A stretch of DNA of 64,000 nt from Treponema vincentii (GTDB lineage Bacteria > Spirochaetota > Spirochaetia > Treponematales > Treponemataceae): the NCBI RefSeq assembly GCF_018336815.1, contig NZ_CP050497.1, positions 1,426,001 to 1,490,000 on the forward strand, in the 5' to 3' direction. Both the position numbers and the translations under genes were made by a program. The notes below the pieces were generated by a model that made no database searches, was not told where the DNA came from, and was given only the letters and a program-made list of their open reading frames with translations. How positions within the stretch are numbered: position 1 is the stretch's first letter; each line of letters opens with the position of its first letter. Positions 14,071 through 60,208 of this stretch are shown here, piece by piece.

Positions 14071-14098
14071 TAGACGGTGTGCGGCATATTTTCAAAAG
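14071..14098 (+). repeat. right-end fragment of the 123-bp structured repeat
   Basis: The segment AGACGGT...GGCATATTTTCAAAAG matches the right end of the element at 60060-60182, including its variant TTTTCAAAAG terminus. No left half is visible. It ends 9 bases before ATG 14108, and the GGAG ribosome site follows directly. Confidence 0.65.
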
Positions 14099-50904: not shown

Positions 50905-50922
50905 AGCGGCACGGATGCCGCT
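50905..50922. repeat. small CGGA-loop hairpin after the dihydropyrimidinase gene
   Basis: AGCGGCA-CGGA-TGCCGCT: 7-bp perfect stem with the same CGGA loop as the 15-bp hairpin at 50964. A second 8-bp stem, GTTTCAGC/GCTGAAAC, follows at 50941-50959. There is no T tract, so termination is possible but not clear. Confidence 0.6.
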
Positions 50923-50963
50923 GGTTATATCAGAAGCGATGTTTCAGCATCGCTGAAACTCGT

Positions 50964-50997
50964 CATGAAAAGTGTACACGGATGTACACTTTTCATG
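50964..50997. repeat. 15-bp perfect hairpin with CGGA loop (R4, copy 1)
   Basis: 50964-50978 is exactly complementary to 50983-50997, loop CGGA. Bases next to the loop are ACA/TGT as in copies at 54011 and 59995, although the outer 12 bp are unrelated. It is followed by a right-end fragment of the 123-bp element (to about 51034). Confidence 0.9.
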
Positions 50998-51003
50998 ATG
51001 CGA

Positions 51004-51034
51004 CAACGCAGATGTGCCGTATATTTGCAAAAAA
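51004..51034 (+). repeat. right-end fragment of the 123-bp structured repeat
   Basis: CAACGCAGATGTGCCGTATATTTGC plus A run matches the right end of the element at 54150-54272. The left half is absent; the R4 hairpin occupies its place. It abuts the 3' end of the minus-strand TPM gene. Confidence 0.75.
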
Positions 51035-52370: not shown

Positions 52371-53120
52371 AGCCGGATGCTCCTATCAAATTGGTAAAGT
52401 ATTCTTATGCACACTGATGGAAACCTCTAAAAACTTCAGTTTTTTAGAGGTTTTCCTTAAGCTTATTTGCGATGTTTTAATTTAAGTCATTACTATATAA
52501 AGACTTAAATTAAAACTCGTCGGGCACCTCTAAAAATCTAACCGAGTTTTTAGAGGTGCCCTGATGTATGCCGAACTGACTGTAAAGTATAGACCATTTA
52601 TCGAAAAAAAACAATGTGCCGAAAGTCCGTAAGCAGGGATTCAGCATGAAAGAAAAATAAAAGAAAAACATCGTTTTATGTGACAGCACGTGTGAAAAAA
52701 GAGGGCGTTCAGGCACTTTCGCTTCGCTCAAAGGCCATTCACAACCCTCTTTTTTCACGCTTTTCTGATATATTCCGGTCTTTCGTTGTTTTTTTCACAG
52801 CTGAATCCCTGTCATTATTAAAAAAGTGCGGATTTTTGAATTTCTTTGTCCTAAAAAACATTCAAAAATCCGCACTTGCTCTATTAGAAAACCTCCTGTT
52901 TCACTGTTATCTCTCAAGAATTTTTTTCATGCTGAAGCCCTGAGTCCGTAAGGTAGTTGTAATTGTTATTATGGTACAGAGGCCGAGATATTACCCTTTT
53001 CCGTACAAATAAACATTTTACAGTAGAAAAACGGATCGACGTCCTTTTGTCTATACAAAAAATAGTTTTTTTATAGACATAGTGATTTCCCTATTTTGCA
53101 TTATAAAAGTAACCCACGCT
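52371..53120. repeat. palindrome-dense intergenic region
   Basis: Five perfect inverted repeats lie between the divergent lemA and tetR genes: 52421-52433/52441-52453 (ACCTCTAAAAA type), 52474-52488/52502-52516 (15 bp), 52522-52536/52547-52561 (15 bp, ACCTCTAAAAA type), 52692-52705/52745-52758 (14 bp) and 52824-52841/52860-52877 (18 bp). No gene ends here, so they are not ordinary terminators. No coding region in this 750-base stretch is supported; the visible frames lie across the palindromes. Confidence 0.85.
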
Positions 53121-53895: not shown

Positions 53896-54010
53896 AGGGG
53901 TATGGGAAATTCATAATTGGTAATTGGTAATAAGCGTTAGGGATTGGAGGGGCAGCGCAGCTGTTCCGAAGGAATGGAGCGTTAGCGGAACCCCGTAAAG
54001 CCCGACGGTC

Positions 54011-54044
54011 GGTCAAACATTGACATCCGTGTCAATGTTTGACC
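54011..54044. repeat. 15-bp perfect hairpin with TCCG loop (R4, copy 2)
   Basis: 54011-54025 pairs perfectly with 54030-54044; loop TCCG, the reverse of CGGA, again flanked by ACA/TGT. Outer arms are unrelated to copies 1 and 3. Confidence 0.9.
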
Positions 54045-54149
54045 TGCGAGATTTATTGTATAAATCTCGCAATAGCGTATTCCACAGCCCTCCGTGGCTA
54101 CTGGGATACGCGGGAACCGGAACGCCCAAAATTAATTTTATGAATAAGC

Positions 54150-54272
54150 CTTTTGCAAATAGACGGTACAGATGCAAGGCGCAAGCAAAAATTAACCGGA
54201 GCCGTACTTTGTGTACGGTGAGGATTAATTTTTTTGAAGCAACGCAGCAGATGTCCCGTATATTTGTAAAAG
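54150..54272 (+). repeat. 123-bp structured element (R3, copy 1)
   Basis: Ends CTTTTGCAAATA and TATTTGTAAAAG are complementary apart from a G-T pair. Inside, CAAAAATTAACC faces GGATTAATTTTT around a CCGTAC/GTACGG hairpin. The right end lies 18 bases before ATG 54291. Copies 2 and 3 (56029-56150 minus, 60060-60182 plus) have the same fold with compensating changes. Confidence 0.85.
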
Positions 54273-54290
54273 ATAAGGAGGTTGTTCTAA

Positions 54291-56027
54291 ATGGACACAT
54301 ATAAAAGGTTATTAAAATATACGCCGGAGAAAATACACTGTGCGTATATTTCGGTGGTGTGCGCTACGCTGGGAGTTGCTTCTCAGATGGGTGCATTTTG
54401 GTTTTTATGGAAGTTTTTGTACGCGCTTTTGGTTACCAAAAACGTTACGGACGGGTCGATGTACGCAACGGTGATTGTTTCGCTGTTGGCAGGTTATTCG
54501 GTTGTATATTTCTGCGCTTTGTGGGCGTCGCACGTACTTGGGTTCCGGCTTGAATCGAATTTGCGCAAAACGGCAATCAATCATTTGATGAATGCTTCGT
54601 TTTCGTTTTTCGACCTGAACCCGTCGGGAAAAATCCGCAAGCTGATCGATGACAATGCGCAGGAAACGCACATGCTGGTTGCGCATTTAATTCCCGATAA
54701 TATTTCCGCATTGTTTACGCCGATTTTTATGTTTATCATTGTATTTGCAGTTGATGTAAAACTCGGTCTGTTGCTGCTTGCCGTTGCGCTTATCGGCGGT
54801 GCGCAGATGATGTTTATGATGGGCAATAAAGATTTTATGCGGAAGTATCAAGCGGCGTTGGAACGGATGAATGCCGAAGCGGTTGAATATGTCCGCGGTA
54901 TGCAGATTGTCAAAATCTTTAGAAGCACGGTTGAATCTTTTAAAGCGTTTTACGAAGCAATTACCGGCTATTCCGATTTAGCATACAAGTACACGCTCAG
55001 CTGCCGTACGCCGTATGTGATGTTTCAAGTGCTGTTTAATCTGTTCGCGGTATTCACTATTCCTGCCGCTATTTATTTTATGAACAAGGGGGCGGACGCT
55101 AACCTTATCATTGCAAAGCTCGTCTTTTTTGTCTGTATCGCCGGTGTGCTTTTTTCGGCATTTATGCGCGTGATGTATGTCGGTATGTATAACTTTCAGG
55201 CAAAAAGCGTTGTAGATAAACTCGAAAATCTTTTTGCAGATATGGAAAAGGATAACCTTGAACACGGTACGGAAGAAACCTTTGAGAACTTCGGTATTGA
55301 ATTTAAAAACGTATCGTTCGGTTACACGGAAGAAAAGATTTTAAATGATGTCAGTTTTACATTGGAACCGAATAAAACCTATGCACTGGTCGGATCATCA
55401 GGCGGAGGAAAAAGTACAATAGCAAAATTGATCTCTGGTTTTTATAAAATAAATTCAGGTGAAATTTTAATCGGCGGAAAAAATATTTCGTCATATTCAC
55501 GGAATGCGCTGATGCACAGTATCGCCTTTGTGTTCCAAACCTCGAAGCTCTTTAAAACAAGTATTTTTGAAAACGTCAAAATGGGGAATAAAAATGCAAG
55601 CGATGAAGAGGTGATGAATGCGCTTAGGCTTGCCCGCTGCGAAGATATTTTAGCCAAATTCCCCGAACGTGAAAAAACGGTTATCGGTTCAAAGGGTGTA
55701 CACTTATCCGGCGGAGAAATTCAGCGTGTTGCGATTGCCCGCGCTATTTTGAAAAATGCGGATATTATCATTTTGGACGAGGCGTCCGCCGCTGCCGACC
55801 CGGAAAATGAATACGAAATTCAACAGGCGTTTTCCAATTTGATGAAAAACAAAACGGTTATTATGATTGCGCACCGCTTGAGCTCGATTAGAAACGTCGA
55901 CGAAATTCTCGTGGTCGAAGACGGAAACATCGCCGAACGCGGCAGCGATGCCGAGCTTATGCAAAAAGGCGGAAAATACAGCCATCTACAACGACTGTAT
56001 TCTAAGGCGAATGACTGGAGGGTCTAG
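54291..56027 (+). CDS. ABC exporter half-transporter (first of pair)
   Basis: 578 aa. Six membrane helices (about 15-290), then an ATPase domain with Walker A GSSGGGKS, Q-loop FVFQTSKLFKTSIFENVKMGN, signature LSGGEIQRVAIARA, Walker B IIILDEASAAADPE and the IAHRL switch, all intact. The AAGGAGG site is 6 bases before ATG 54291. It pairs with the next gene as a likely heterodimeric exporter controlled by the TetR protein; drug, peptide or lipid cargo is unknown. Confidence 0.88.
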   Translation: MDTYKRLLKYTPEKIHCAYISVVCATLGVASQMGAFWFLWKFLYALLVTKNVTDGSMYATVIVSLLAGYSVVYFCALWASHVLGFRLESNLRKTAINHLMNASFSFFDLNPSGKIRKLIDDNAQETHMLVAHLIPDNISALFTPIFMFIIVFAVDVKLGLLLLAVALIGGAQMMFMMGNKDFMRKYQAALERMNAEAVEYVRGMQIVKIFRSTVESFKAFYEAITGYSDLAYKYTLSCRTPYVMFQVLFNLFAVFTIPAAIYFMNKGADANLIIAKLVFFVCIAGVLFSAFMRVMYVGMYNFQAKSVVDKLENLFADMEKDNLEHGTEETFENFGIEFKNVSFGYTEEKILNDVSFTLEPNKTYALVGSSGGGKSTIAKLISGFYKINSGEILIGGKNISSYSRNALMHSIAFVFQTSKLFKTSIFENVKMGNKNASDEEVMNALRLARCEDILAKFPEREKTVIGSKGVHLSGGEIQRVAIARAILKNADIIILDEASAAADPENEYEIQQAFSNLMKNKTVIMIAHRLSSIRNVDEILVVEDGNIAERGSDAELMQKGGKYSHLQRLYSKANDWRV

Positions 56028-56028
56028 A

Positions 56029-56150
56029 CTTTTGCAAATATGCGGGTAATTACTTTGTCGCTGCATAAAAATTAATCCTCAACGTATCAAAGATACGCCT
56101 CCGGTTAATTTTTATTCGCTCCTCGTACTTACCTCACCTATTTGCAAAAG
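56029..56150 (-). repeat. 122-bp structured element (R3, copy 2)
   Basis: Minus-strand copy of the element at 54150. The right end (CATATTTGCAAAAG) lies just after the stop of the first ABC gene and the left end (CTTTTGCAAATAG) at 56150; the inner stem has GCGTATC/GATACG. It separates the two ABC genes. Confidence 0.85.
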
Positions 56151-56192
56151 CGTTGGAAGGAAAGAGATTTTTTCCTAATTAGGGAGTTATAT

Positions 56193-57911
56193 ATGACTAA
56201 ATTACAAAAATGGTTCGGGGTAACCGAATCGGGGGCAAAAGGAATTGTTACGGCATCGGTATGGTCGATGCTTGCGGATGTTGCATTTATTTTACCGATG
56301 TTTTTAATGATGTTCTTTTTGCAAAACTATTTTGACGGAACGCTGCAGTCGGCGGGATTTTATATCGGTATTATTGCTGCGCTTGCGGTTGTGATGTATG
56401 TGCTTGTGCATATCAATTACAATACGCTCTACACCGCGACATTTAAAGAATGTAAAGAACTGCGCGTGAATATTGCAGACCGGCTCAAGGCGCTGCCGCT
56501 TGCGTATTTTTCCAAACACGATGTTTCCGACTTATCACAAACGGTGATGACCGATGTCGCTACAATCGAACATGCGCTCAGCCACGCAATTCCTCAAACA
56601 ATCGGTCTTGTGTTCTATTTGCTTATAATCGGTGCAGTGATGATTACTGCTCATCCGGGATTAGGCTTATGTGTATTTGTCCCGATTATTATCAGCTTTA
56701 TTTTATTGATCCTGTCGAAAAAAATTCAAATACGGGAGACAACGCGGGACTTTCATAAACAGCGTGAGCGCACGGAATTTTTTCAAGAAGCGATAGAACT
56801 GCAACAGGAAATTAAAAGCTACGGGCTTACGGAAGACACAATGGAAAAATTGAACCGCAATGTTGATGAAGCAGAGAAATTGCACTTAACTGTGGAAGCG
56901 CATCAAGCGATCCCGCTTAACATCGCACTGCTGTTTTTAAAGTTTTCCATCGGCGTTACCGTATTTTTCGGACTAAAAATGTATCTGGCAGGCACGGCTT
57001 CGCTTTTATATCTTATCGGCTATATTATTGCAGCTGCCCGTGTGGTGGATGCGGTTGCAGGTGTTGAAGCGAACCTTGCAGAGATGATGTATATCGATGC
57101 ACGGGTTAAGCGCATAAACGAGCTGCGCGAAACAAAAACGCAGGAAGGCGAACCTGCTTCTTTGCAGCATTACGGTATTCAATTTAAAGATGTGGAGTTT
57201 TCGTATAACGACGGACAAAAGATTATCGACGGTATTTCGTTTACCGCGGAACAAAATAAAGTTACCGCGCTTGTCGGTCCATCAGGCTGCGGAAAAACAA
57301 CCGTACTGAGGCTTGCGTCCCGTCTCTATGATTACGGCAAGGGACAAATTCTCATCGACGGCAAAGACATTGCAACAATCGATACCGACAGCCTTTTCGA
57401 TAAAATTTCGATTGTCTTTCAGGATGTCGGGCTTTTCAATACCTCGATTATGGAAAATATCCGCGTCGGAAATAAAAACGCAAGCGATAACGACGTAAAA
57501 GAAGCTGCCCGTCTTGCAAACTGCGCCGAGTTTATCGAAGCGCTGCCGGACGGCTACAATACGGTCATCGGTGAAAATGGAAGCAGGCTTTCCGGCGGAG
57601 AGCGTCAGCGTCTTTCCATTGCTCGCGCCCTTTTGAAAAACGCACCGATTATCATTCTTGACGAAATCAGCGCCTCGCTCGATGTGGAAAACGAAATGAA
57701 AATACAGGAAAGCCTCAACACACTCATAAAAGGCAAAACCGTGATTATCATTTCGCACCGCTTAAAGTCAATCGAGAACGCTGATAAAATCATCGTAATG
57801 AATAAAGGCAAAGTTGATGCGGAAGGTACGCACGCAGAGCTGTTACAAAAATCGGCGCTGTACCGAAGTATGATTGAAAAGTCTTCGGTAACGGAAAAAT
57901 ATACCTATTGA
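56193..57911 (+). CDS. ABC exporter half-transporter (second of pair)
   Basis: 572 aa. Six membrane helices (about 18-290) and an ATPase domain with Walker A GPSGCGKT, VFQDVGLFNTSIMENIRVGN, signature LSGGERQRLSIARA, Walker B IIILDEISASLDVE and ISHRL. Both partners have intact ATP sites. ATG 56193 is chosen for its AGGGAG site; an upstream in-frame ATG (56142) lies at the edge of repeat R3 and lacks one. Confidence 0.88.
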   Translation: MTKLQKWFGVTESGAKGIVTASVWSMLADVAFILPMFLMMFFLQNYFDGTLQSAGFYIGIIAALAVVMYVLVHINYNTLYTATFKECKELRVNIADRLKALPLAYFSKHDVSDLSQTVMTDVATIEHALSHAIPQTIGLVFYLLIIGAVMITAHPGLGLCVFVPIIISFILLILSKKIQIRETTRDFHKQRERTEFFQEAIELQQEIKSYGLTEDTMEKLNRNVDEAEKLHLTVEAHQAIPLNIALLFLKFSIGVTVFFGLKMYLAGTASLLYLIGYIIAAARVVDAVAGVEANLAEMMYIDARVKRINELRETKTQEGEPASLQHYGIQFKDVEFSYNDGQKIIDGISFTAEQNKVTALVGPSGCGKTTVLRLASRLYDYGKGQILIDGKDIATIDTDSLFDKISIVFQDVGLFNTSIMENIRVGNKNASDNDVKEAARLANCAEFIEALPDGYNTVIGENGSRLSGGERQRLSIARALLKNAPIIILDEISASLDVENEMKIQESLNTLIKGKTVIIISHRLKSIENADKIIVMNKGKVDAEGTHAELLQKSALYRSMIEKSSVTEKYTY

Positions 57912-57927
57912 AAATGATTAATCTTTC

Positions 57928-58022
57928 ACGTTAGATTGCAATATCTCTTTTGCAATCTAACGTAATACATTGTTGCAGCCCTATATGGAACCTCTAACAA
58001 CCGTAAGTTTTTTAGAGGTTCC
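57928..58022. repeat. two inverted repeats after the second ABC exporter
   Basis: ACGTTAGATTGCAA/TTGCAATCTAACGT (57928-57941 with 57950-57963, 14 bp perfect) and GGAACCTCTAA/TTAGAGGTTCC (57987-57997 with 58012-58022, R2 family). Neither is followed by a strong T tract on the plus strand. The remaining bases to 58199 hold no other feature that I can name. Confidence 0.8.
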
Positions 58023-58199
58023 CGTATGTATTGACGTGTGTATAGCTTTTATGCTAGCTTTCGCAGTTTGATTGTAGAATAGCTACATTCTTTGGTACAT
58101 ACACGGTTGCCGCTCCGAGCTTACAAACCGAAGGAAAATACCGTGTATAGTCAAAACACAAAATAGATACGCGGGAACCACCTGCAGTAAGGAGTCACC

Positions 58200-59939
58200 A
58201 TGGATCAAAACCACATTTCCGCTCATTCAGCAGCCAAACGTACATACCGGCTGCCGCAGATGAAGCATATTTTCCTCTCTGTGCTTATGCTGACTGTAAG
58301 CGCAGTGATGTTTTTAAGCTGTAGAGGTCACAGTGGTAGCAACGTCATTACCATCAAAGTAGAAGGAGACCAGTATATCACCGTCAAAAAACCGGAAACA
58401 AAATCATTAACAGTTGCAAGAGGCAGCAAATGGGCTGCAATAAAGAGCACAATCGAAATAAGCTGTCATGATGATTATGAGCTGAGCGGCTGGAAGCTCA
58501 ACAATGCGAGCGGAACTGCCGTAACGGACGAAACGGTATTTAACAATGATAGTGTTGTTTTTGCAGTGTCGGCAAAAAAACCGGGAAAAAAATATTACGT
58601 GCATCATTTACTGCAAAATGTCAACGATGATAACTACACGCACAACACACAAGATGATCAAACACTGCACGGAGATGTCGGCACAGATACAAAAGCTACT
58701 GCAAATTCCTATCAGGGTTTTACTGCACAGTCCTTTGATCAGAAGAAAATTGCGGCTGACAATACAACCGTTGTAGAGATTAAGTATGACCGGAAGAATA
58801 TCACACTTACTTTCGACTTGGATGGAGGCAGTTTTGTACCGCCCCTTCCATCGGGAAATACCTTGACGGGACGTTTTGGGGCGCCTATTTCTATAACTGA
58901 CCCGACAAAAGCAGATGTCATATTTGCGGGGTGGGATCCGGAACTTCCAGCAACTTTCACCTTAGAAGCTAACGGTAAGACATACACTGCACAGTGGAGA
59001 AAGCTAAGGATTACTGTAGAGGGAGACGAGCGCATAAAGGAAGATACGTTGGGCACTATCGAAGTAAACAAGGATGCAACATGGGCAGACGTGGAAGCAC
59101 AAGCAAAAGCAAAGGCTATCTTAAAAGATGACTGGCCGGCAGCAGACTATGAAATCTACGAATGGCGGCTCAACGATAGAAACGGTGAAAAACTGGATAC
59201 AACGTATACCTTTACCAAAGATACAACAGTCTATGCCGTTACCAATTATAAGAGCTTTAACATTGCAGCTGACGGTAAAACACTTGATGCATATCCGCAT
59301 GGAAAAGCCCCAAAAGGCTCAATTATTATTCCTGAAAATATTACCGTAATCGATTCGAATGCTTTTGCAGGAGCTGCAGAGCTCTCAAATGTCATTTTAC
59401 CGGAGAAGCTGGAAGAGATCCGTGAAAATGCTTTTAGCGGCTGTACAGAACTCAAAGCCATAGACATTCCTGCAAAAGTTACTAAGATTGATAAAACGGC
59501 GTTTACAGAGTGCCCTAAACTGGCTACATTCACGGTACATGCTGACAATACCATCTATCATGCCGAAGAAAATATCATCTACAGCAAGGATAAGAAAAAA
59601 CTGGTGTGGGCAGCCCCCGCGCTAAAAGAGGCGAATATTCTTGATTCCGTTATCGAAATAGAGGATTACGCCTTTCGAGGATATTCAAACTTGGAAGCAG
59701 TAAAGCTTCCTCGTGGTCTCAAAACAATTGGTGAGGAAGCTTTTCTAGGCTGTACTGCAAGTGTGATCACAATTGTAGGTAATGAGCTTACTACAATAGG
59801 CAACAATGCTTTTGGTCATAAAGATCATAGCGAAACTTGTTGCAAAAAGATAAGGATACCGCAAGGAGCTGAGTTCGATAATATCGTAACAAAGGTCAAA
59901 GCTGTCAATTACCCCGAAGGGCGGATTGAACGGTATTAA
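58200..59939 (+). CDS. BspA/LrrA-like leucine-rich-repeat lipoprotein
   Basis: 579 aa. A 20-residue extension precedes a signal sequence with a lipobox-like LSC near residue 42, so a lipoprotein is likely. InlB-type beta-grasp repeats follow (about 50-110, 185-265; ITLTFDLDGG…PTKADVIFAGWDP and KTYTAQW), then treponemal-type LRR_5 repeats (about 365-560; e.g. IPENITVIDSNAFAGAAELSNVILPEKLEEIRENAFSGCTEL). Related proteins of oral treponemes and Tannerella bind host matrix or partner bacteria. AAGGAG before ATG 58200 supports this start over an internal Met at 21. Confidence 0.87.
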   Translation: MDQNHISAHSAAKRTYRLPQMKHIFLSVLMLTVSAVMFLSCRGHSGSNVITIKVEGDQYITVKKPETKSLTVARGSKWAAIKSTIEISCHDDYELSGWKLNNASGTAVTDETVFNNDSVVFAVSAKKPGKKYYVHHLLQNVNDDNYTHNTQDDQTLHGDVGTDTKATANSYQGFTAQSFDQKKIAADNTTVVEIKYDRKNITLTFDLDGGSFVPPLPSGNTLTGRFGAPISITDPTKADVIFAGWDPELPATFTLEANGKTYTAQWRKLRITVEGDERIKEDTLGTIEVNKDATWADVEAQAKAKAILKDDWPAADYEIYEWRLNDRNGEKLDTTYTFTKDTTVYAVTNYKSFNIAADGKTLDAYPHGKAPKGSIIIPENITVIDSNAFAGAAELSNVILPEKLEEIRENAFSGCTELKAIDIPAKVTKIDKTAFTECPKLATFTVHADNTIYHAEENIIYSKDKKKLVWAAPALKEANILDSVIEIEDYAFRGYSNLEAVKLPRGLKTIGEEAFLGCTASVITIVGNELTTIGNNAFGHKDHSETCCKKIRIPQGAEFDNIVTKVKAVNYPEGRIERY

Positions 59940-59994
59940 TTTATTTCTTTGCTATCTTAGATTTACAAAATCAACAACCCCGGCGCAGAGCATT

Positions 59995-60028
59995 CGCCAA
60001 AACTATACACGGATGTATAGTTTTGGCG
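59995..60028. repeat. 15-bp perfect hairpin with CGGA loop (R4, copy 3)
   Basis: 59995-60009 is complementary to 60014-60028, loop CGGA flanked by ACA/TGT, outer arms unrelated to copies 1 and 2. It is followed by AGATGCGCCGTATATTTTG (to about 60047), a degenerate R3 right end, as at 50964-51034. Confidence 0.9.
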
Positions 60029-60059
60029 TAGATGCGCCGTATATTTTGTTTCCGTAAGC

Positions 60060-60182
60060 CTTTTGAAAATAGGGGTACCGGATACAAGGCACGAACAAAA
60101 ATAAAGCGGAGACGTACTTGTTGTACGTTGAGCATTTATTTTTGTGCAGCAACGCCGTAGACGGTATGCATATTTTCAAAAG
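60060..60182 (+). repeat. 123-bp structured element (R3, copy 3)
   Basis: Ends are CTTTTGAAAATA and TATTTTCAAAAG: both differ from copy 1 but remain complementary. The inner stem is ACAAAAATAAA-GC facing GC-A-TTTATTTTTGT with ACGTAC/GTACGT, so compensating changes preserve the fold. It ends 26 bases before the scpA ATG. Confidence 0.85.
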
Positions 60183-60208
60183 TCCCGTTCTTCGATATAA
60201 TAACCCCC

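Follow-up and report, generated by a model that had tools for sequence, protein, structure and literature searches.

Hairpin copies in the window

The window, the whole 64,000-nt stretch of the Treponema vincentii genome analysed here, holds three full-length copies of an element of 122–123 nt that folds into a single long hairpin with small internal loops. Copy 1 (54150..54272, plus strand) lies 18 nt upstream of an ABC transporter gene start (54291) and copy 3 (60060..60182, plus strand) 26 nt upstream of an ScpA-domain gene. Copy 2 (56029..56150, minus strand) sits between two ABC transporter genes, and its 3′ end in the element orientation adjoins the stop codon of the first. The neighbours of the copies also include a TetR-type gene and a BspA-type leucine-rich repeat gene.

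Partial copies accompany them. At 50990..51032 (plus strand), a truncated copy retains the 3′ part, element positions 80–122, joined to and overlapping a TD-2 match. By eye, the apparent 3′ end of a further truncated copy (60028..60047, plus strand) abuts copy 3 on its left. The 5′ linker TTCCGTAAGC (60050..60059, plus strand) recurs 5′ of copies as CCGTNAGC or CCARCG, and the 3′ flank carries no recurrent linker. The piece at 14071..14098 (plus strand), called a fragment of the element by the first-pass annotation, does read as the 3′ end of a copy, with the search match covering 14087–14098 and the remainder recognised by eye. A TD-2 RNA (RF03162) match (54007..54101, minus strand) lies on the 5′ side of copy 1 in the opposite orientation.

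The three copies had been described in that annotation as one long hairpin with compensatory changes. All three are present and fold in this way, and their ends and inner stems covary exactly as it wrote. As RNA, taken on the strand on which they had been read there, copies 1, 2 and 3 fold at −47.4, −48.4 and −49.6 kcal/mol with z of −6.6, −9.0 and −8.1, and no shuffle equals them. As single-stranded DNA they likewise form hairpins, with z of −5.9 to −7.4. No Rfam family matches any of the three at the gathering score.

A dispersed and patchy family

A search with copy 1 by blastn gave 42 matches in the genome at E up to 1, many of them partial. We built a covariance model, R1, from 22 copies (alignment A2), and it gave at least 65 matches in the same genome among the best 150 of 1738 candidates scored. 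After we dropped the opposite-strand and weak matches, at least 48 distinct model-spanning copies were left; in two of these the 5′ end is foreign and a TD-2 match overlaps the copy.

With the best 60 candidates taken per genome, R1 matched 9 of 59 genomes overall. The matches numbered at least 40 in G001, 58 in G002, 60 in G004 and 57 in G006, then 21 in G021, 6 in G050, 4 in G052 and 1 in G033, and G003 and G005 of the same genus had none in the same search. Five genomes of the genus, the own genome included, hold 40–60 model matches each. A core model at E 1e-6 matched 8 of 247 Spirochaetota genomes, six of them in two genera, and this patchy spread makes the distribution look mobile. The search of the genome and of related treponemes proposed earlier finds dozens of copies, patchily placed among relatives.

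Carriage by phages or plasmids was rejected, as blastn with copy 1 against phages and plasmids and a core-pattern search of viral_contigs gave no match to the element. Strand counts along the genome, compared without reference to the origin position, had no clear pattern of replication-strand bias.

In T. putidum (G064, ~2.58–2.64 Mb), G105 and G233, the core-model matches form one-strand clusters with a spacing of 2–9 kb, whereas the copies in the genome of the window are scattered. Two hairpin copies in T. putidum are inside YD-repeat frames, RHS-like by eye (L153, 692–2149 and 4538–7972), and leave these long reading frames open.

A core shared between phyla

The core reads CCGSAG-NCGTA-loop-TACG-NYGAGG, flanked by AAGG-like and ACGCAG-like motifs. 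As a pattern it occurs in at least 108 stretches of genome_contigs, from Synergistaceae, Bradymonadales, several Deltaproteobacteria, Nitrospirae, Myxococcales, Sedimentisphaerales and others, while its expected number by chance is well under one by our estimate from the fixed letters. A second model, R2, gave at least 10 matches in 12 of 17 genomes (range 1 to at least 150), these genomes having been picked for their core-pattern hits.

The invariant letters within the core are forced by the pattern, so the evidence rests on the unforced features. Among 28 non-redundant non-treponeme copies, the two 60-nt flanks form a median of 44 pairs with each other, against a shuffled mean of 15.4. The motifs not forced by the pattern occur in 19 and 20 of the 28 (null means 5.6 and 2.3; maxima 12 and 10). 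Of 112 pattern copies, 60 had ends placed by an automatic search for outer inverted repeats, most of them ~160–198 bp apart and some 99–129 bp. These ends are taxon-specific, and the outer arms, unrelated between members, are paired from end to end.

Target duplications of 4 bp flank 7 of 9 Synergistaceae copies (CTAA in five; P 0.0005 against a shuffle mean of 3.0), 5 of 8 Bradymonadales copies (shuffle mean 0.73, P 0.0003) and 1 of 3 in one Deltaproteobacterial group. None stands out among 149 treponeme copies; the lone signal there comes from a single boundary shift, at which 4 of the 149 show a 2-nt match (versus 0.15). Two related groups in other phyla thus show the case named earlier as speaking against a structural role, a simple insertion family with target duplications; the treponemes do not.

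The treponeme element is one branch of a cross-phylum superfamily with a shared core and freely diverging outer arms. Tentatively, this superfamily may be held together by a core that a widespread factor recognises, with the arms exchanged or rewritten layer by layer as paired units and inheritance following the fold and not the linear sequence; we take this as possible and short of probable. Six core strings had no occurrence in the literature searched, and the other searches returned general or unrelated work.

Paired arms in separate layers

In the 22-copy alignment, 98.1% of 943 cells at the 43 consensus pairs are standard pairs, against a shuffled mean of 86.5%. Both sides have changed in 24 of these 43 pairs, a covariation that 0 of 500 shuffles reach, and the covariation score is 0.383 versus 0.151 shuffled. 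Sliding the 3′ partner by 1–3 columns lowers the pairing to 34–48%. In 149 copies from six genomes, 97.8% of 6383 pair cells are standard pairs. The covariance model and covariation test suggested by the first-pass annotation return a very strong covariation in the 22 copies.

We classed the arms by type into an outer and an inner layer. The 5′ and 3′ arm types are associated with a Cramér's V of 0.96 in the inner layer (n 137 of 149) and 0.86 in the outer layer (n 140), while outer versus inner layer gives 0.29 (n 138), nearly independent; unclassed copies are dropped from these values, and the pairing-aware model that found the copies favours matched arms. In the treponemes, the arms of one layer stay matched while the layers reassort.

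The outer arms, ~110 nt apart, are strongly linked, and the outer and inner stretches of one arm, only ~40 nt apart, are nearly unlinked. Linear distance alone predicts that the outer arms should be the least linked, so the pattern points to exchange on the folded hairpin, to arm templating or to loss of mismatched recombinants. The layer reassortment could be partly recurrent mutation. Two chimeras, described below, show that recombinant copies do arise.

Turnover at the same sites in related species

Copies were grouped into 30 shared sites by flank similarity, and these groups favour intact copies since the relatives' copies are the best-scoring ones listed. The 70 between-species pairs fall into 38 at an identity of at least 0.90 and 32 at 0.63–0.815 with none between, a gap that is not absolute, as a flank-anchored copy (L333) stands at 0.837. 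The 32 dissimilar pairs hold 220 double changes that keep pairing, 45 G-U changes and 48 cells that break. The 38 similar pairs hold 11 paired double changes, 22 G-U changes, 25 breaks and 36 changes in unpaired columns. We infer that these 11 double changes far exceed independent hits at such divergence.

At the site of copy 2, the same element is found in G002, one with a different interior within the same flanks in G006, and none in G001 and G004. One site can hold different subtypes in different treponeme species, and much of the between-species 'compensatory' variation separates whole subtypes at the same site and is not stepwise mutation.

A less biased set was made of the three window sites and 11 further own-genome sites, whose counterparts in G002, G004 and G006 were located with no more than the right flank; 4 of 15 flanks queried were left out, one as repetitive and three for weak, short or several matches. 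By our own reading, with the right flank as the only anchor, the 42 comparisons show the same element in 11, a different well-paired subtype in its place in 9, a chimera in 2, a fragment in 9 and no element in 11. The boundaries of the 11 empty sites are blurred by neighbouring repeats, so that loss is not told from non-insertion. Eight of the 9 fragments are 3′ ends or collapsed mini-hairpins; the fragments include one of ~10 nt recognised by eye (L342) and a 5′ piece of 36 nt that does not adjoin the junction (L329). At two sites, relatives have lost all of the element but its last ~24–44 nt, which adjoin a −10-like box.

The chimeras occupy the site orthologous to L069. One (L345, 263–385) joins two subtypes with mismatched inner arms, and its RNA fold is still an imperfect hairpin with the outer arms paired. 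The other (L349, ~263–385) joins two subtypes without a 5′ outer arm.

Comparison with known repeats

Among known repeats, the ERIC/IRU/RU-1 repeat of enterobacteria comes closest in size and fold. It is described in parts of PMC2229807 and PMC10969869 as a 127-bp dispersed intergenic palindrome of one long stem loop in tens of copies or more, and transcripts of ERIC and NEMIS fold likewise according to a part of PMC1590033. One E. coli ERIC copy (L243) folds here as a long hairpin with z of −7.2. In the table of PMC2229807, however, ERIC has a target duplication and TA termini, whereas the treponeme element shows no duplication. A test for kinship with ERIC did not show it: R1 had no ERIC match in E. 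coli and R2 had just a partial match of 9.5–9.7 bits (E ~0.04) at three loci that represent two distinct ERIC copies.

Correia/NEMIS, RUP and RPE are given in a part of PMC2229807 as small palindromic repeats with terminal inverted repeats. Compared by description, they differ from the present element in that its core, not its ends, is common across phyla. RPE occurs inside genes, as does the treponeme element in T. putidum. The REP/BIME repeats resemble it as mosaics of several hairpin families in intergenic space and in a one-sided tag, but REP elements measure 20–40 bp (a part of PMC3733652) against 123 bp here, and the treponemes searched have no Y1 transposase match.

The element shares with MITEs its short length, its many dispersed copies with terminal inverted repeats and its empty sites between species (11 of 42 comparisons). 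MITE-like repeats are as a rule identified by their conserved ends, the sequence between them being dispensable. This element reverses the usual pattern, its middle being conserved between phyla and its ends not. Integron attC sites carry the core sites GTTRRRY and RYYYAAC at the hairpin ends, and the element was rejected as an attC site because its ends, CTTTTG...CAAAAG, do not fit by eye.

A mobile hairpin or a structure used by the host

The copies are dispersed and patchy, are absent at orthologous sites, turn over as paired arms and share a cross-phylum core. We think that the element is probably a non-coding, non-autonomous, MITE-like mobile hairpin with arms turning over as paired units. 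The hairpin would be needed, as single-stranded or cruciform DNA or as a transcript, in mobility or in exchange between copies, and as a consequence only well-paired copies would spread. Paired arm changes would arise in one step, either by recombination between copies or by one arm templating the other.

Alternatively, the host may use the structure under purifying selection, for example in mRNA stability or processing at gene ends, such that any well-paired subtype serves and a swap is allowed but decay is not. The kept copies mismatch their counterparts at 73 of 3922 positions (1.9%), versus 352 of 3827 (9.2%) in the adjacent 120-nt right flank, and are the more conserved in 31 of the 32 similar pairs (of 38) with an alignable right flank; this counts against a neutral mobile repeat, yet the comparison is biased toward the best-scoring copies listed for the relatives, and choice by model score favours conserved copies. 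The 42 flank-anchored comparisons contained no copy that was full-length yet decayed through scattered point mutations. The strands also differ in polarity, as G-T plus T-G cells number 121 against 58 for A-C plus C-A in the element orientation, a count of non-independent cells that excludes the two basal apical pairs with their 222 G-T cells.

This use by the host nevertheless appears unlikely. In 20 of the 42 comparisons the element is absent or a fragment, and two others are chimeras. At kept, unreplaced sites, pair-breaking substitutions (25) are as common as pairing-keeping G-U ones (22), and the copies have no fixed orientation to genes. Selection on structure, argued earlier from the covariation, hence holds as far as the covariation is real and point-decayed full-length copies are missing from the 42 comparisons, and fails for an RNA leader.

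Base-pair covariation is the standard proof of functional RNA. If the mobile hairpin undergoes structure-directed exchange, mobile DNA can produce covariation without any RNA function. Such covariation, if true, bears on the acceptance of structured-RNA candidates.

Search for a mobilising enzyme

The searches described here found no mobilising enzyme. Movement as a REP-like single-strand element by an HUH enzyme of IS200/IS605 type would fit the one-sided recurrent linker (CCGTNAGC or CCARCG), the absence of target duplication in treponemes and the TD-2 neighbours, which are almost all on the 5′ side (20 of 22). This is quite unlikely in view of the 4-bp duplications in two groups of other phyla and of the Y1 transposase search, which had no match in seven element-carrying treponeme genomes (G000, G001, G002, G004, G006, G021 and T. 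putidum) and led us to reject a Y1/IS200-IS605 partner.

A DDE_Tnp_1 partner was also tried and set aside, being unmatched in three copy-rich treponemes (G001, G002 and G021). No autonomous element with matching ends was present in the loci scanned, and the lone treponeme candidate (L322, 276–822) was discarded because it spans two neighbouring copies. The core provides a concrete sequence for seeking the missing enzyme.

Orientation to genes

The first-pass annotation had placed the two plus copies and the 14071–14098 fragment shortly before start codons. The distances are right for these quoted cases (18, 26 and 9 bases), and are not general over 149 copies. With the neighbouring reading frames assigned mechanically in six genomes, the right side of the element faces 65 frame starts, 81 frame ends and 3 without a frame, and the left side 75 ends, 55 starts and 19 without. 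The neighbour pairs are codirectional in 77, convergent in 33, divergent in 18 and incomplete in 21. Convergent neighbours outnumber divergent ones, a pattern expected of repeats avoiding promoters. No fixed upstream orientation to genes was found over the 149 copies, and at most sites the element does nothing oriented for the neighbouring gene.

A hairpin in 5′ untranslated regions that controls the next gene is therefore very unlikely. Positions 9–26 nt before start codons and the strong covariation would suit such a leader, but the right neighbour starts at the element in just 65 of 146 assigned copies and ends there in 81, and no Rfam family matches the element. The cis-regulatory leader fails because the copies have no useful gene orientation and because 20 of the 42 orthologous comparisons have no element or a fragment; this part of the earlier proposal is largely refuted for the family.

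It is extremely doubtful that the covariation is wholly an artefact of comparing subfamilies fixed long ago in a dead repeat: the subtypes are discrete and most double changes separate them, but at one site sister species can hold different subtypes, a fragment or nothing, which means turnover after the split, 11 double changes fall within the 38 similar pairs, and the cross-phylum members pair fully with unrelated arms.

A few element 3′ ends sit at the position of a promoter −35 box. Among unique flanks, a −10-like hexamer follows TTTNCA by 17–18 nt in 6 of 109 on the right, with two of these belonging to one site, and in 0 of 112 on the left; an outward −35 box at the 3′ end is a minor effect only. 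In the window (60171–60200), a TATAAT-like box follows 17 nt after the element 3′ end TTTTCA. At sites orthologous to L013, the 3′ end by a TATAAT-like box persists in relatives that lost the rest.

Neighbouring hairpin families

TD-2 has at least 147 matches in the own genome among the best 150 of 699 candidates scored. It lies within 200 nt of 24 of the 48 copies, while just 2.0% of the genome is that near to TD-2. Two of the 24 overlap it, and among the other 22 it is in the opposite orientation in 18 of the 20 on the 5′ side. Like the element, TD-2 is dispersed, hairpin-based and physically linked to it, but it has its own three-hairpin structure, which the element does not match.

One site has a short spacer and no element in G002 and G006, versus a mosaic of several repeat types that ends in the hairpin in the own genome and G004. 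Taken together, the TD-2 proximity, the linker and this multi-repeat site mean that hairpin families make up a mosaic in the intergenic space here, often with the element as its 3′ terminal module.

In the literature searched, TD-2 terms did not occur, and the part of PMC2864571 consulted does not mention TD-1, TD-2 or Treponema. TD-2 acts as a dispersed repeat, in the window (50905–51001 and 54007–54101) and genome-wide, though its Rfam type is sRNA. Some TD-2 matches occupy the expected place of the hairpin loop, as at 646003/646004 and 1260304/1260305 of G000. Three near-perfect hairpins in a row (52417–52562, z −11.5) form a separate dispersed family, with dozens of matches in related genomes among the matches listed.
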